53,482 nucleotides of DNA from Myxococcaceae bacterium (GTDB lineage: Bacteria; Myxococcota; Myxococcia; Myxococcales; Myxococcaceae). This document shows, piece by piece, positions 1,972 through 37,677 of the stretch (the stretch's first letter is position 1; every line of letters begins with the position of its first letter). Below the pieces are notes generated by a model. It ran no database searches and was not told where the DNA came from. It saw nothing but the letters and a program-made list of their open reading frames with translations. Made by a program: the position numbers and the translations under genes. The stretch spans positions 1-53,482 of the forward strand of contig JADGHL010000021.1 in the NCBI GenBank assembly GCA_019686135.1, given 5' to 3'.

Positions 1972-3261
1972 TCAGCTCCCCGGCGGCGCGAGCGCGGTTT
2001 CAGCCACCTGCTTCGCGCGCCGCTTCTCGATGATCCACACCGCGATCACCCCGAGCTCGTAGCAGAGGAACATGGGGCCGCACATCAGCGCGAGGTTCAC
2101 CGCGTCACCGGTGGGTGTGATGACCGCGGCGGCGATCAGGCACACCACCAGCGCGTGCCGCTGGTACCGGAAGAGCCAGCGCGACTTCACCAGCCCCAGT
2201 TGTCCAAGGAGCGCCATGACGATGGGCAGCTCGAAGATCACCCCGAACGCCAGCTCCAAAAGCAGCACCAGGGAGAGCTGTTCGGACATGGTGAGCATCG
2301 GTCGCGTCCAGGAGAGCGCGGCGTGCTTCGCCGTGCCGGCGGAGATGTCCTTCTCCAGGCGCCAGAGCTCGGTGAACATCGAGGTGTGAGCGGGCGAGAC
2401 GGCGGCGAGCGCGGCAGCGGCCTCGTCGATCCGCTTCTGAGCGGTCGTGTAGTCGCCGCGCTCGTAGGCGTCGAGCGCCTCGGCGCGCTTGTCCATCACC
2501 GTCCGCAACACCGGCCGTGCGGCGGGGCCGAAGCTCTCGTGGGCGGTGTCCATCAGCCGCCCCAGGCCCTCGAGCTGCGTGTGGAGCATCAACCGGGGCG
2601 AGGGTTTGTTGGCGGGATCGGCCGGGATCAGCGACTCCTTGATCTCCGAGGCGATGCCCTCGCTCCCCGCCCGGGCCAGGGCGCTCGCGCGCTTCAGATC
2701 GCCAAAGCGCATCGCGCGCAGCGCGTCCTCCTCGCGCACCTTCGCATCCGCCACCTTGTGCTCCAGGCCCACGGCGTCCGGATCGTTGAGGAGGAACTCG
2801 AACATCGACGGCAGGACGATGAAGTACGAGAAGGCACCGCCGAGGATGAACGCGAGCGTCCCGAGGACCACGAAGGGGCCCGCGAACTTGCGTTCGGACG
2901 GGTACAGCCCGGGCGAGACGAAGCCCCAGATCTGCCAGAGCAGCACCGGCGTCGCGAGGAAGACGCCGGAGTACAGGCCGACCTTCATCAGGACGTTTAT
3001 CTCTTCGATGCCCGAGGTGTAGATGAGCGACCGGCCCTCCGGCGGAAGCGCCGCGAGCACTGGCTCCATCAACAGCCCGAAGATCGGCTTGGCGAACGCC
3101 AGCGACGCCGCGCCCAGCACCACCACCGCAATCGTCACGCGCAGAAGCCGCGAGCGAAGCTCGGTGAGGTGTTCCGCGAGGCTCATCCGGAGCTCGCCGT
3201 CTGCCTCTTCGGGGCCGGTGGCGCCGGGGGCCTCGACCTTCTTCGCGCGCTGGCCGATCAC
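1972..3261 (-). CDS. tatC: Sec-independent (twin-arginine) translocase subunit TatC with large periplasmic insertion
   Basis: TatC is the membrane receptor for folded Tat substrates. The 429-residue protein has the hallmarks: cytoplasmic 'HLTELRSRL' with Glu34, TM1 (about 41-57), the P1 loop, TM2 (96-115), 'FVSPGLYPSERK' with the conserved Glu123, TM3 (128-152), TM4 (328-352), TM5 (about 368-382) and TM6 (388-411). TatC is usually about 250 residues. Here about 160 extra residues (160-322) sit between TM3 and TM4, in the second periplasmic loop. The insert is hydrophilic and Ala/Glu/Arg-rich, and its helices look TPR-like (for example 'ALDAYERGDYTTAQKRIDEA'). The frame is continuous with no stop or compositional break, so the insert is part of the protein. 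The start overlaps the end of tatB by 4 nt. Confidence 0.93.
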   Translation of the reverse strand: MIGQRAKKVEAPGATGPEEADGELRMSLAEHLTELRSRLLRVTIAVVVLGAASLAFAKPIFGLLMEPVLAALPPEGRSLIYTSGIEEINVLMKVGLYSGVFLATPVLLWQIWGFVSPGLYPSERKFAGPFVVLGTLAFILGGAFSYFIVLPSMFEFLLNDPDAVGLEHKVADAKVREEDALRAMRFGDLKRASALARAGSEGIASEIKESLIPADPANKPSPRLMLHTQLEGLGRLMDTAHESFGPAARPVLRTVMDKRAEALDAYERGDYTTAQKRIDEAAAALAAVSPAHTSMFTELWRLEKDISAGTAKHAALSWTRPMLTMSEQLSLVLLLELAFGVIFELPIVMALLGQLGLVKSRWLFRYQRHALVVCLIAAAVITPTGDAVNLALMCGPMFLCYELGVIAVWIIEKRRAKQVAETALAPPGS

Positions 3262-12059: not shown

Positions 12060-14996
12060 TCAGAGGCCGCTCTGCTCCATCATGAACTTGTTGGGGTCCT
12101 CCTGCCCCTTCTCCGGCGTGCGCTCGTGGGGTTCGGTCCCGCGCTTGAACCACATCTCCTTCACCTCGTGGCTGCCGGAGGTGGCGAGCTTCCCGGTCTT
12201 GTTGTCGATCCGCAGCCGCACCAGATCCGCGCCGGGCGGAGGCGTGAAGTCGGGCTGGGGCACGCCGTCCAGCGCCTTCTTCATGTAGGCCAGCCAGATC
12301 GGCAGCGACGCGCGGCCGCCGGTCTCGTAGCGGCCGAGCGGGTGCGGGTTCAGGTCGTAACCCACCCACGAGGTCGCCACGAGATCGTGCGTGAACGCGG
12401 AAAACCACGCGTCGAACGAGTCGTTGGTCGTCCCGGTCTTGCCCGCCGCCGGCTTGCCCAGCCGCATCGCCGCCACGCCGGTGCCCTCGCGCACCACGCC
12501 GCGCAGCAGGTCCACGAGGATGAAACCGGTCTCCTTGCTCATCACCTGCTCGCCCTGGTCGTACAGGCGCGCGTACGCGCCGGCGATCCGGTCCTGCAGC
12601 GGCGCCCACGGATCGTCGTACGCGGTGTGGTCCTCGAGCGTGCGTCCGTAGCGGTCCTCGATCTTCCGCACGAAGTACGTGGGCCGCTTGTTGCCGAAGC
12701 GCGCAAACGTCGCGTACACGCCGGCCAGCTCATACGGGTAGACACACGAAGAGCCGAGCGCGGCGGAGAAGTCCTGGTTGATGGGCGTGGTGAGACCGAG
12801 CTTGTGGGCCCAGTCGGTCATCCGCTGCACGCCCACCGCGCCGAACGTCTTCACCGCGGGGATGTTCATCGAGTTGATGAGCGCGGTGCGAAGCAGAACG
12901 TCCCCCTGGAAGTCCGACGAGTAATTCTCCGGCTTCCACCGCACCTCGCTGGTGGGATCGTCGTAGACGATCGGGCTGTCCACGATCACCGTCGCCTCGG
13001 TCCACTTCAAAAGCTCGATCGCCGCCGAGTAGACGAACGGCTTGAAGCTCGATCCGGGCTGCCGGCAGGCCTGGAACGCGCGGTTGTACTCGTTGGCGTC
13101 GAAGTCGTAGCCGCCCACCATCGCCACGAGGTACTGGCGCCAGGGATCGATCGAGACGAGCGCGCCCTGCAGCTCGGGCTCCTGCTCGAGCCGGAAGAGC
13201 TGCACGTCTCTGGGCAGCTTGCGCTTCATCGCCTCGCCGGCGGTCTTGTCGTCGTCGGTGAGGCCGTCCGCGTCGGTGGCGCGGACGAGGATGAGGTCCC
13301 CCGGACGCAGCACGCCGCGGATGGTGTCGATCAGCGACGACGGGTAGTACGCCTCGGGGTTCAGCTTGCGCGCCCAGCGCATCCCCAGGAGCGGAAGCTT
13401 CCCCTTGAAGTGGCCGACCTGAACGTCCGCGCTCTGCCCGTCCGCATCCACGCCGGTCACCAGCGCCACGTAGAAGTGCTCTTTCTGGATCTGTTCGTCG
13501 CCGAGCGCGCGGTCCGCCTTGTCGAGGAACGCCTCCCACTCGCTCTTCGCCAGGTTCCCGAGCACGCCGCGGAAGCCCTGCCGCTTGTCCACCTCGAGGA
13601 GCCCGTAGAACATCGCCTCCTGCGCGGCGCGCTGCTTCTCCGAGTCCATGGTGGTGTAGATGCGCAGCCCTTCGTTCAGCAGCGTCTCGTTCCCGTAGCG
13701 GGCGGCCACGTCGCGGCGGACCTGTTCGACGAAGTACGGCGCGAACTCGTGGAACACGTCCTCCACCGGGTACGCCTTCACCTCCTCCGCCTGCGCCTGG
13801 TCGTACTCGGCCCGGGTGATCATCCCCTCGTGCAGCATGCGGGTGAGCACGTAGCCACGGCGCTTCTTCGCCGCCTCCGGGTTGAGGAACGGCGAATACC
13901 GCGAGGGCGCCTGCGGGAGCCCGGCGATCAGCGCCATCTCCGCGAGCGTGAGCTGCGTCACGTCCTTGCGGAAGTAGTTCTCCGCCGCCGCCTGCACCCC
14001 GTAGGAGTGGTGCCCGAGGTACACGTTGTTCAGGTACAGGTAGAGGATGTCCTCCTTGGTGAGCGCGCTCTCCAGCCGCCGCGCCAAAATCGCCTCGCGG
14101 ATCTTCCGCTCGAGCGTCTTCGCCGTGGCCTTCTGGAACGCCGCGCGCCGCCGCGCTTCGCGGATCCGGAGGAACGCGCGCTCCACCTCCTGTTCACGCC
14201 GCTGCTGGGCCGCGGCCATCAGCCGGTCGTGCGCCTGCCGGGCGATCTCCTCGTCGGTGTAGCTGTCGGGGCTGCGGGGCAGAGGCGCCGTCTCCGCGGT
14301 GGCCCCGTCGTCCGCCGTCTCCTCCGCCGGGGTCGCCGCCGCCTCCTCGCCGGCCGACGCCGGCCGCGCCTTCGGCTTCGGCGGCTTCTTCCCGCCGCGC
14401 ACCAGCCCCAGCTCGTGGAGCTCCTTCTTGATGCGGGCGATCTCCGCGTCCAGCTCCTCGCGGGTCGGCTCGGCGGGCGGGGGCACCTGCTTCTCCGCCT
14501 CCGCCATCATCTCGTCCGGCTGGAGCCCGCGCATCTCCGCGGTGACCAGGATCGCCTTCGCGGTCTGCTGCGTCAGCGTGGAGCCACCCTGGACCGAACC
14601 GCCGAGGTGCAGCTTCTTGCGGATGGTGGACACCGCGGCGCGCAGCGTGCCGGGGACGTCCACGCCGCCGTGGTCGAAGAAGCTGGAGTCTTCCGAGGCG
14701 ATGAACGCCTGCACCAGGCGCTTGGGGATCCGTTCGTAGGGGATGACCTTGCGGCGCTCGTTGTAGAACTCGCCGGCCAGCACCCCGTCGTCGCTGAGCA
14801 CCTCGGAGAGGATGAGCGGCCGGTACTCGTCCACGCGGGGGATCTCCGGCAGCCCCTCCGAGTACTTGTAATAGATGACCACCGCGCCGATCGCCGCGGC
14901 CGTGACGCCACACAGCGTCACCCAGGCCGCGATCTTGAGGCCGCGCAGCCACCAGGGCCGCTTCGGCGGAACGCCATCCAGCACCAGCTTCGACAT
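12060..14996 (-). CDS. mrcA: bifunctional penicillin-binding protein 1A with insertion in the glycosyltransferase domain
   Basis: 978 residues of class A PBP, which polymerises and cross-links peptidoglycan at the inner membrane. TM anchor is about 22-43. The GT51 domain starts near 60, with the catalytic Glu102 in 'ASEDSSFFDHGG', then 'GGSTLTQQTAKAIL' (137-150) and, only after about 140 extra residues (153-292), the remainder 'KTLERKIREAILARRLES' with the second Glu301 and 'YLNNVYLGHHSYGVQAA'. The insert is Ala/Pro/Glu/Lys-rich and partly coiled coil. The transpeptidase domain has SxxK in 'PGSSFKPF' (about 646), SxN in 'INSMNIP' and KTG in 'AAGKTGTTND' (about 852). The ATG at 14996 overlaps the upstream pseudouridine synthase stop by one base. 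Confidence 0.94.
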   Translation of the reverse strand: MSKLVLDGVPPKRPWWLRGLKIAAWVTLCGVTAAAIGAVVIYYKYSEGLPEIPRVDEYRPLILSEVLSDDGVLAGEFYNERRKVIPYERIPKRLVQAFIASEDSSFFDHGGVDVPGTLRAAVSTIRKKLHLGGSVQGGSTLTQQTAKAILVTAEMRGLQPDEMMAEAEKQVPPPAEPTREELDAEIARIKKELHELGLVRGGKKPPKPKARPASAGEEAAATPAEETADDGATAETAPLPRSPDSYTDEEIARQAHDRLMAAAQQRREQEVERAFLRIREARRRAAFQKATAKTLERKIREAILARRLESALTKEDILYLYLNNVYLGHHSYGVQAAAENYFRKDVTQLTLAEMALIAGLPQAPSRYSPFLNPEAAKKRRGYVLTRMLHEGMITRAEYDQAQAEEVKAYPVEDVFHEFAPYFVEQVRRDVAARYGNETLLNEGLRIYTTMDSEKQRAAQEAMFYGLLEVDKRQGFRGVLGNLAKSEWEAFLDKADRALGDEQIQKEHFYVALVTGVDADGQSADVQVGHFKGKLPLLGMRWARKLNPEAYYPSSLIDTIRGVLRPGDLILVRATDADGLTDDDKTAGEAMKRKLPRDVQLFRLEQEPELQGALVSIDPWRQYLVAMVGGYDFDANEYNRAFQACRQPGSSFKPFVYSAAIELLKWTEATVIVDSPIVYDDPTSEVRWKPENYSSDFQGDVLLRTALINSMNIPAVKTFGAVGVQRMTDWAHKLGLTTPINQDFSAALGSSCVYPYELAGVYATFARFGNKRPTYFVRKIEDRYGRTLEDHTAYDDPWAPLQDRIAGAYARLYDQGEQVMSKETGFILVDLLRGVVREGTGVAAMRLGKPAAGKTGTTNDSFDAWFSAFTHDLVATSWVGYDLNPHPLGRYETGGRASLPIWLAYMKKALDGVPQPDFTPPPGADLVRLRIDNKTGKLATSGSHEVKEMWFKRGTEPHERTPEKGQEDPNKFMMEQSGL

Positions 14997-15970
14997 CAGT
15001 CCTCCAGCCCGGCCTTCCGAAGCACGTCGCGAAGCTCGGCCGGCAGCCCTGCCTCGATCACCACGCGTCCCCCGTGTTCGGGATGCGGAAACTCGATTCG
15101 TTCGGCGTGCAGGAACAAACGCTTCAAACCCCAGCGGGCCTTTGCTTCGCGGTTGAAGGCGAAGTCGCCGTAGCGGCGGTCTCCTGCAACCGGGTGGCCA
15201 ATGGCGGCGAAGTGTCTCCGAATCTGGTGGGTGCGGCCAGTCTCTATCGCACAGGAAACGAGCGCCGCCCCGGAAGCCTGCTTCACGACCTGCCAGTGGG
15301 TGATCGCCTCCTGCATGTTCACGCCGCGGACCGCCTTCGACCGGGCGGTCTGCTGGTGCTCGGAGAGCGGAAGGTCGATCGTCCCCTTCGGGCGAGGCAT
15401 CTTCCCCTTCACCAGCGCCAGGTAGCGCTTCTTCGCGCGGCCGCGGGTGAAGACGTCGGTGAAGTGCACCATCGCCGGCCGGCGCTTGGCCACCAGCAGG
15501 ACGCCCGAGGTGTCGCGGTCGAGCCGGTGCGCGGGGCTCGCCGCGAAGTCGTTCCGCACGGCCTTCGGCCCCAGGTACGCGCGGACGTAATCCACCACCG
15601 TTCCGCCGGTGATGCCGCTGCCGGTGTGCACGGCCATCCCCGACGGCTTGTCGATCGCCATCATCCAGTCGTCCTCGAAGAGGACCTTCCACCGGTCGGG
15701 ATCGACCGTCTCGGAAGGCGGCGGCTTCGGTTTGACGCCCCGGGGAGATGGATTCACCGCGGTCGAGAGCTTCTGCGCGTCGCCGCGGATGGTGACGACA
15801 TCGCCCGGCACAAGCGGCTGCTCCGGCTGCGCCCGCTTGCCGTTCACCCGCACCTTCTTCGTGCGGATCATCTTGAACAGATGCGAGGCGGGAACCTGCG
15901 CGAGCCTCTTGCGCAGGAACTTGTCGAGCCGGACGCCGGCCAGATCCTCCTCGATTCGGTACTCGAGCAT
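14996..15970 (-). CDS. RluA-family 23S/tRNA pseudouridine synthase
   Basis: 324 residues with an N-terminal S4 RNA-binding domain (about 10-60, 'GVRLDKFLRKRL', 'RVNGKRA') and a RluA-type catalytic domain. The catalytic Asp151 lies in 'HRLDRDTSGVLLV', followed by 'KRYLALVKG' and 'ETGRTHQIRRHFAAIGHP'. Domain order matches RluC/RluD, which modify 23S rRNA; the exact target uridines cannot be told. Start at the ATG 15970, where the S4 fold begins (an upstream open stretch lacks family similarity). The stop overlaps the PBP1A start (TGATG). It is divergent from the pentapeptide-repeat gene, with only 50 nt for both promoters. Confidence 0.9.
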   Translation of the reverse strand: MLEYRIEEDLAGVRLDKFLRKRLAQVPASHLFKMIRTKKVRVNGKRAQPEQPLVPGDVVTIRGDAQKLSTAVNPSPRGVKPKPPPSETVDPDRWKVLFEDDWMMAIDKPSGMAVHTGSGITGGTVVDYVRAYLGPKAVRNDFAASPAHRLDRDTSGVLLVAKRRPAMVHFTDVFTRGRAKKRYLALVKGKMPRPKGTIDLPLSEHQQTARSKAVRGVNMQEAITHWQVVKQASGAALVSCAIETGRTHQIRRHFAAIGHPVAGDRRYGDFAFNREAKARWGLKRLFLHAERIEFPHPEHGGRVVIEAGLPAELRDVLRKAGLED

Positions 15971-16020
15971 TCGATCATTTACTGTCGCGGCGGCCCGACC
16001 ACATAGGTAAAAGGCCATCC

Positions 16021-35971: not shown

Positions 35972-36406
35972 TCAGGGCGCGACGCCCTCGCCGTGCAGGT
36001 TCAGGCTGAGGCGGACGGACGTCCCGTCGTGGTCGAGCACCAGCCGGCCGGTCACCGGCCCCACCTCGGTGGGCGCGAAGGTGAGGACGAGCGTGGCCTG
36101 TTCGCCGGCCCCCACCTGGTCCGGGGCCTGGGCGAAAAAGGTCCCCGCGGGCGCCTCCTCGAAGCGGCTGGCGGTGATCCGCGCGAGATCGCTTCCGACG
36201 TTCACCAGCATCAGCGAGGACCGCTGCGACTCGCCCACCGGCACCGCGCCGAAGTCGAAGTCGCCCTCACGGACCGGTTCGCCCTGGTCCGGCAGCATCA
36301 CGCGCAGATCGCCCTCGTTGCTGTTCTTCGAGGTGTCCCCACGGCCGCACCCGAGCGCGAGCGCCAGCGCGACCACCCCTGTGAGCATCCACGTCCTGTT
36401 CTGCAT
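35972..36406 (-). CDS. small ASH/choice-of-anchor-like lipoprotein
   Basis: 144 residues with a lipoprotein signal (lipobox LALGC, Cys20). The mature protein has one immunoglobulin-like domain of the ASPM-SPD2-Hydin type: 'FDFGAVPVGESQRSSLMLVNVGSDLARI...VGAGEQATLVLTFAPTEVG' layout, which is the classic 'phi-G-x-x-x-x-G-x-x' strand pattern. Such domains usually mediate protein contacts in the envelope. The ATG at 36406 overlaps the TGA of the upstream TPR gene by one base, so it is the last gene of the long minus-strand series. Specific role unknown. Confidence 0.78.
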   Translation of the reverse strand: MQNRTWMLTGVVALALALGCGRGDTSKNSNEGDLRVMLPDQGEPVREGDFDFGAVPVGESQRSSLMLVNVGSDLARITASRFEEAPAGTFFAQAPDQVGAGEQATLVLTFAPTEVGPVTGRLVLDHDGTSVRLSLNLHGEGVAP

Positions 36407-37677
36407 CACGGCCCCACTCTGTTCGCGAGCCCGGCGGAGGCAGCGTACGATGGATCGCTCTCGGCCAGCTTGCGCCACAACTTCTTCGCGCCCTCCGGGT
36501 CGCCCTTCTCCTTCAAGGTCGTCCCGAGCGCGTCCACTGCCTTCGGATCGCCCTGCACCGCCACCTGCCACACGCGGTCCGCCATCGGCTGCCGGTTCAG
36601 GCCGATCATCGCCCACGCCATGCCCGCACGGGCGCGGCCGTTCTGCGGCTCGAACGGAACGACGCGCTTGTAGTTGTCGAGCGCCTCCTGGAAGCGCCCG
36701 TGCGCGAGGTGCTCTTCGGCCTCCTCCACCAGCTTCTGGAGACCCGCCATCAGCTCCGGCGTACGCTCGGTGTTCTGGATCGCCTCCATCGCCTCGGGGC
36801 TGATCGCCGGCAGGCCGGCCTGCGCCGTCTTCGGGGCGTTCTTCCAGGCCGCCTCGGCTTTGGCGTGGGCCTCGGCGTTCCGCTGTTCGTCCAGCCGGGT
36901 GAAGCCGCCGGCGCCGGCCGCCGCCTCGACGTGGGCCAGGACCGTCTTTGCCCAGCTCGTGCGCGGCGAATCCGGGCGGAGCGCGAGGTAGCGGCGCAGC
37001 TCGCGGCCCACCTCGCCGAGCGCCTTCGGATCGTCCCCGCGCAGCTCGGCCAGCGCCATCGCGTGCGTCCACAGGACGTCCGGATCGTCCGGAGTGGTGG
37101 CGAGGCTCTCTTCGAGCACGGGCAGCGCCTGGTCGGTCTGGCCGGAGTTGATCAACGCGCCGGCGTAGAGCTGGCGCGCTTCCATCACGGGCTCGAGCGC
37201 CACGCGCGCGCAGGTGGCGGCGGCGGCGAGCTGTCCGGACTTCTGCCGTTGAGTCGCCGTCTCCAGCTGCTTCTGCAGGCTGTCGGTGGGCGCGAACAGG
37301 CACCCGGCCGTCTCGGCGTTGGGGAGATCGAGCTTCTTCTGCCGCGCCTGCTTCAGCGCGGCGACGTAGAAGGTGCGGACCGGTTCACCCTTGTCCACCG
37401 CCTGTTTCAACAGTCCGGCCGCGTCTTCGAAGCGGCCGTTGCCGTAGTACAGCTTGCCCATCGACAAGGCGATCTCGAACGGCTTGTCGCGCTCTTTGAG
37501 TCCGTCGGTCCGGTCGAGCTGCTCGAGGAGCTTCTGGGACGTCTCCAACGCCGGCGCGTCCGCCGGGGCGGGTGAACCGGTGCCGATCGGCGGGTGGTTG
37601 GGCGGCAGCGTCTGCGCCAAACCGGCGCCGCCCGCGAACAGGGCGAGGCACAGAAGCGCGTGGCGGGGCGAGGTCAT
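36406..37677 (-). CDS. exported tetratricopeptide-repeat protein
   Basis: 423 residues starting at ATG 37677, where a signal peptide begins (MTSPRHALLCLALFAGGAGLAQ). Several degenerate TPR units follow, for example 'ALSMGKLYYGNGRFEDAAGLL' (about 70-90), 'AGALINSGQTDQALPVLEESL', 'EEHLAHGRFQEALDNYKRVV' and 'TTLKEKGDPEGAKKLWRKLAE'. It presumably acts in the periplasm as a scaffold. It overlaps the ASH-type lipoprotein gene by one base and follows folK by 44 nt. Known family roles are too broad to name a function. Confidence 0.8.
   Translation of the reverse strand: MTSPRHALLCLALFAGGAGLAQTLPPNHPPIGTGSPAPADAPALETSQKLLEQLDRTDGLKERDKPFEIALSMGKLYYGNGRFEDAAGLLKQAVDKGEPVRTFYVAALKQARQKKLDLPNAETAGCLFAPTDSLQKQLETATQRQKSGQLAAAATCARVALEPVMEARQLYAGALINSGQTDQALPVLEESLATTPDDPDVLWTHAMALAELRGDDPKALGEVGRELRRYLALRPDSPRTSWAKTVLAHVEAAAGAGGFTRLDEQRNAEAHAKAEAAWKNAPKTAQAGLPAISPEAMEAIQNTERTPELMAGLQKLVEEAEEHLAHGRFQEALDNYKRVVPFEPQNGRARAGMAWAMIGLNRQPMADRVWQVAVQGDPKAVDALGTTLKEKGDPEGAKKLWRKLAESDPSYAASAGLANRVGP

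Follow-up and report, generated by a model that had tools for sequence, protein, structure and literature searches.

A rare insertion between glycosyltransferase motifs II and III of a myxobacterial PBP1A

Lineage-restricted extra regions of class A penicillin-binding proteins (PBPs) have been described in gammaproteobacteria, such as E. coli, where ODD of PBP1A and UB2H of PBP1B dock LpoA and LpoB, respectively (PMC3060616, available text). For the glycosyltransferase (GT51) domain itself, the available text of PMC6053601 places the flap of S. aureus MGT (SaMGT) at residues 104 to 128, motif II at residues 129 to 136, and Lys153 in motif III; it describes the flap and motif III as forming the membrane-contacting base of the GT51 jaw and gives Lys140, Asn141, Arg148, and Phe150 as contacts to moenomycin bound in the donor site. 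In E. coli PBP1b, residues 237 to 266 are unmodeled and residues 267 to 297 are modeled (PMC8119973, available text). No published description of GT51 with motifs II and III separated by an insertion was found in the accessible text of openly licensed PMC papers. Such an insertion is described here from a 53,482-nucleotide stretch of Myxococcaceae DNA (the window; contig JADGHL010000021.1).

The PBP1A gene and its interrupted GT51 domain

The coding sequence of PBP1A (978 aa; positions 12060 to 14996, minus strand; start ATG at 14996) comprises a transmembrane helix, GT51, an OB-like region, and a transpeptidase domain and begins inside a longer open reading frame (ORF) (12060 to 15692, minus strand). 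The protein scored 549.9 bits against NCBIfam TIGR02074 (PBP_1a_fam; cutoff, 508.75), 189.4 bits in two stretches against Pfam Transgly (GT51; cutoff, 27), and 89.5 bits against transpeptidase PF00905 (cutoff, 22.1), and it was assigned on these matches to PBP1A among the class A PBPs. The transpeptidase motifs SxxK (residues 649 to 652; 13041 to 13052, minus strand), SxN (SMN, residues 709 to 711), and KTG (KTGTT, residues 853 to 857) were all present. A helix predicted by AlphaFold2 at residues 15 to 46 (14859 to 14954, minus strand) would serve as the membrane anchor, a role taken from the family. Immediately upstream, a pseudouridine synthase gene (S4 and PseudoU_synth_2; 14996 to 16018, minus strand) ends in a TGA that overlaps the PBP1A ATG (TGATG); the overlap is preceded by GGAGG, and the two genes are therefore probably cotranslated.

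All three GT51 motifs were recovered on the minus strand: motif I (EDSSFFDHGG, residues 102 to 111, with the catalytic Glu102; 14664 to 14693), motif II (GGSTLTQQ, residues 137 to 144; 14565 to 14588), located by sequence and alignment, and motif III (RKIRE, residues 297 to 301; 14094 to 14108). E102, D103, G137, S139, Q144, and K298 were invariant across 39 aligned sequences, and R297 and E301 were nearly so. The catalytic motifs on both sides of the insertion are thus retained, as the initial annotation had stated. Because the tested glycosyltransferase and transpeptidase motifs are present, an active enzyme is likely, and the window PBP1A is probably bifunctional and working. Each of the three class A PBPs of M. 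xanthus can be dispensed with, as can all of them together (PMC10475089, available text), so that a gene of this kind could tolerate change.

Class A PBPs usually, although not by definition, have a GT51 that continues unbroken from motif II to motif III; here, the domain is interrupted, and 152 aa separate the two motifs. Compared with insert-free orthologues, the insert occupies residues 155 to 286 (132 aa; 14139 to 14534, minus strand), a net excess of 131 aa. The initial annotation had reported about 140 extra residues (14118 to 14540, which corresponds to residues 153 to 293) between GGSTLTQQ and the segment with the second Glu (RKxxE), and the profile split and loop comparison agree with that placement. 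The interruption is clean and in frame: the Pfam GT51 profile matched as two segments joining at profile position 80 to 82 with zero positions lost (in the genome search, profile positions 5 to 82 at window positions 14535 to 14777 and 80 to 177 at 13836 to 14129), and the PDB relative 4oon aligned to residue 154 and resumed at residue 293. Where insert-free orthologues carry the loop EGYKKATAKT (in most of family f1 as TAKAVLISAEGYKKATAKTLERK or near-identical text), the window protein reads TAKAILVTAE, then 132 residues, and then FQKATAKTLERK. The insert-free PBP1A of an f1 genome (G003) is 76% (N-terminal part) and 70% (C-terminal part) identical around the insertion point and has the identical KATAKTLERKIREAILARRLE after it but differs in having the short loop.

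The insert is rich in Ala (18.9%), Glu (15.2%), and Pro (9.8%), as first noted, and also in Arg (12.1%). Its GC content is 0.765 (flanks, 0.684 and 0.674). Third-position GC is 0.97, compared with 0.95 on each flank, so that foreign codon use is not indicated; a single open frame runs throughout, and orthologues from the family align with each flank, for the most part at 60 to 76% identity. On the frame, third-position GC, and flanks, a chance reading is excluded and the insert is genuine coding sequence.

Predicted structure and position in the GT51 jaw

A full-length AlphaFold2 model built on 39 alignment rows had a mean pLDDT of 85 and a pTM of 0.79, and its listed matches among PDB folds were PBPs. 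Helices around and in the insert were predicted at residues 141 to 156, 160 to 170, 179 to 195, and 248 to 291, followed by the motif III helix (residues 295 to 311). The insert is accordingly predicted to consist of three helices and a disordered linker, all on the minus strand: helix 1 (residues 160 to 170; 14487 to 14519; pLDDT block mean, ~92), helix 2 (residues 179 to 195; 14412 to 14462; block means, 77 to 94), an Ala/Glu/Pro linker (residues 203 to 241; 14274 to 14390; pLDDT, <50), and helix 3, which reaches motif III (residues 248 to 291; 14124 to 14255; block means, 82 to 91). Modeling of the insert alone returned the same three helices, helix 2 among them, with the last unbroken from residue 248 to 301; the arrangement of the helices was not visible in this model (pTM, 0.34). 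A coiled coil had been proposed initially; the helices are predicted with high confidence, which supports this proposal in part, their packing being not visible in the models.

The insert alone matched nothing in Pfam or NCBIfam, matched no PDB sequence with an E value better than 0.68, and, as an isolated model whose low pTM makes this weak evidence, matched no PDB fold; its identification with a known domain was rejected on these searches. Across Pfam, NCBIfam, and PDB, nothing linked the insert by sequence or fold to a docking domain of the ODD or UB2H kind.

The insert had been placed initially in the mobile region of GT51. By the motif numbering of PMC6053601 (available text), the flap, which is the true mobile region, corresponds to residues ~112 to 136 (14589 to 14663, minus strand; pLDDT block means, 51 to 65) and precedes motif II, whereas the insert follows it. 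The numbering of the MGT flap, together with the modeled residues 267 to 297 of PBP1b (PMC8119973, available text), puts the insert outside the mobile flap, and the reading of it as part of that region was rejected. By this numbering, the insert sits after motif II and before motif III, in a normally ordered connection at the jaw base, which faces the membrane. With the shared motifs as reference points, SaMGT Lys140, Asn141, Arg148, Phe150, and Lys153 correspond to window residues Lys147, Ala148, Lys293, Leu295, and Lys298, so that in sequence the insert lies between the equivalents of donor-site contact residues.

This position bears on a catalytic role, in which the helices would form a lid or extended ledge by the donor site, hold the lipid-linked chain, and alter processivity or chain length. 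The insert parts the equivalents of Lys140 and Asn141 from those of Arg148 and Phe150, and the available text of PMC4810414 describes the means by which different glycosyltransferases control glycan length as unknown; orthologues nevertheless manage without the insert, and such a role is judged unlikely.

Distribution and history of the insertion

Among 145 genomes of the order, 142 strongly matched the GT51 segment that follows the insertion point, and 141 were collected; one (G110), in which the match starts at a contig edge, was left out. Lengths between motifs II and III were obtained for 138 orthologues (135 by script and 3 by reading), with G002, G009, and G102 excluded; in G002 and G009, the match coordinates leave no space for an insert. 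The stretch was 21 aa in 117 and 25 aa in 13 orthologues (130/138). Longer stretches occurred in G005 (45 aa), five genomes of family f3 (63 to 64 aa), G024 (116 aa), and the window genome itself (G000; 152 aa). Every other measurable f1 genome, including the tree-nearest G103, lacked the full insert. Within the window genome, a profile search placed GT51 at four sites, and two of its five matches are the halves of the insert-bearing gene; the other full-length copies (L001 and L002) had ordinary short loops, a comparison from which a weak match (L005) was left out.

Outside the order, 50 genomes of phylum members were drawn and 40 loci were fetched from these, one of which belongs to the same class; 36 measured 13 or 21 aa, one (L271) was short by eye, and three were not found. 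A further 80 named loci, gathered with patterns from the window protein and hence not a random sample, yielded 53 usable script lengths of 14 to 45 aa (the maximum in L185; next longest, 41 aa). The rest were short by eye with the second motif unmatched (22 loci), short despite a script error that printed 161 (3 loci), or not found (2 loci). Ten loci of actinobacterial type (L226, L231, L235, L237, L241, L245, L247, L250, L253, and L255) measured 31 to 41 aa, compared with 14 aa in many others; in those named Nesterenkonia, Actinomycetota, Salinibacterium, Cellulosimicrobium, and Quadrisphaera (L226, L231, L235, L241, and L255), the same loop is longer, but at 31 to 41 aa rather than 152 aa. 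The segment was absent from most of the class A PBPs examined, and on these comparisons, the insert is a real, rare, and lineage-restricted elaboration of a known enzyme.

One genome of family f2 (G024) carries, in its PBP1A (L028), an insert at the same point, and both ends, including helix 1, align in register with the window insert. It differs in having 95 rather than 131 extra residues, with most of the linker missing, and in a body identity of 51 to 58%. The local alignment score of the two inserts was 76 (shuffle mean, 33.8; standard deviation, 6.3), a value reached in 1 of 2,000 shuffles. In ungapped comparisons, a 27-mer anchored at motif II scored 32 versus −16.5 (0/20,000 shuffles) and a 40-mer anchored at motif III scored 38 versus −18.2 (1/20,000 shuffles); for the 17 residues that start the insert, the anchored offset beat all others. 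The G024 insert is probably homologous to that of the window. The shortfall is roughly the size of the disordered linker, which would fit retention of the helices and a linker free to vary. A search of the 145 genomes with the insert alone gave a best nonself E value of 3.7e-4 and otherwise a continuum of weak matches elsewhere, with the best G024 match (E value, 0.26) on a contig other than that of its PBP1A insert. Since this single-sequence search missed the G024 insert, the resemblance rests on the local and anchored shuffle tests. The scattered weak matches were read as composition, and reuse of the insert as a module elsewhere in the order was rejected.

Inserts of family f3 may be related to the window insert but are shorter, and the case is weaker than that for G024. 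Per 20,000 shuffles, G143 gave counts of 20 (N-end 17-mer), 1 (C-end 40-mer), and 1,586 (N-end 32-mer), and G037 gave 477 (17-mer) and 572 (40-mer); many pairs and lengths were tried, and the weaker values are uncorrected single-test counts. Among the remaining f3 members tested, and in G005, the resemblance was weaker or not significant. G024 compared with f3 was mostly not significant (best, G025; 19/20,000 for the 32-mer). In G005 (L025; family f1), a 24-aa insert stands at the same place, its 45-aa segment is identical to that of L185, and its end resembles helix 3 of G024 (20/20,000) and not helix 3 of the window insert; it is possibly a remnant.

That the insert is an artifact of metagenome-type assembly, or that the gene is decaying, is very improbable. 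The assembly is in 245 contigs, a second carrier of the species was not found, and the full insert is missing from the nearest named loci, but the single open frame with its third-position GC, the f1-type flanks on both sides, and the intact motifs argue against an artifact, as does the likely homologous insert at the same point in G024.

A quick tree of 49 rows placed the window protein within f1 beside the insert-free G103 (96, starred), with f3 as one clade (100) and G024 apart. Parsimony on this tree required at least 4 changes, 3 of them forced by starred branches; a single gain requires 4 losses, or 6 with the 24-aa insert of G005 counted. The loops of insert-free f1 members and outgroups are alike in length and wording, which argues against repeated precise loss. 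Candidate histories are descent with 4 to 6 losses, transfer of the insert, which is no better supported, and partly parallel growth.

Repeats in the coding sequence may be traces of growth by duplication. A 24-nt tandem repeat lies in two copies in the linker (14307 to 14353), and a 16/17-nt direct repeat (14239 to 14255 and 14434 to 14450), as good as which was seen in 23 of 1,000 codon shuffles, connects the coding of helices 2 and 3. These repeats favor tolerated loop growth, in which a helical Ala/Glu/Arg-rich expansion would have arisen by replication slippage or duplication at a permissive surface site and would have little or no function. The variation in site length by lineage (21, 25, 45, 63 to 64, 116, and 152 aa), the lengths of 27 to 41 aa in some nonmyxobacterial loci, and the lack of the full insert in every measured f1 relative point the same way. 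The likely homology with G024, which lies in the helices and not the linker, and the confidence of the predicted helices suggest some constraint. Tolerated growth is a serious possibility, nearly as likely as the docking or regulatory role considered below.

Elsewhere in the window, TatC (2074 to 3174, minus strand) is split by ~155 aa at Pfam position 132/133; the initial annotation had named it as a parallel in-domain insertion. Of 30 genomes, 22 (17 of 18 from f1, the others from f2, f3, and f6) have separated halves on a single contig, and 7, from f4, f5, f7, f8, and f9, have an unsplit TatC; G013, which would be the 23rd, is undecidable, with halves on two contigs. By these counts, the TatC insertion is a clade-wide trait and does not make a second oddity. 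A genome-wide habit of insertions was rejected, as the only other named case proved to be this clade trait. An ORF at 35972 to 37303 (minus strand) has a C-terminal Pfam match to an Ig-like domain, which we take to be of the ASH/HYDIN type, a family known chiefly from proteins of eukaryotic cilia.

Possible role of the insert

The reading ranked first, although held tentatively, is that the insert equips a probably working PBP1A with a lineage-specific appendage for docking or regulation. A three-helix module with a linker would have taken the place of the short loop that joins the helices of motifs II and III; a partner protein or membrane-surface contact that gripped the module could shift motif III and thereby tune glycosyltransferase activity. 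Consistent with an appendage, GT51 is split with no loss of profile, its catalytic and substrate motifs are intact, and the helices are confident (pLDDT, ~77 to 94) and reproduced from the insert alone. The in-register similarity to the G024 insert at both ends, and the weaker similarity to the f3 inserts, point the same way. The LpoA and LpoB docking precedent placed this reading ahead of tolerated growth and of a donor-site accessory. The insert resembles ODD and UB2H in being an additional part of a class A PBP that is confined to certain lineages, and the analogy is proposed for role only; ODD and UB2H have known partners and lie outside the GT51 core, which makes the analogy inexact, and a sequence relation to the insert is not shown (PMC3060616, available text).

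Against an appendage, G103 and all other measurable f1 genomes lack the full insert, its composition resembles low complexity, and a short tandem repeat lies in the linker. A more specific proposal is doubtful: a folded module for regulation or processivity would sit inside the GT51 jaw near the donor site, would exert control unlike that of ODD and UB2H, and would persist in a few myxobacterial lineages, with losses or transfers between them.

GT51 is compact and conserved, and few of the proteins examined carry so large an insertion between motifs II and III. If the insert is merely tolerated, it would reflect ordinary protein evolution. If the enzyme works, the insert would be a natural experiment on the donor-site jaw, processivity, and moenomycin binding and would also offer probes a permissive site. 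A partner for the module, if there is one, would give class A PBPs a further control point, embedded in GT51.
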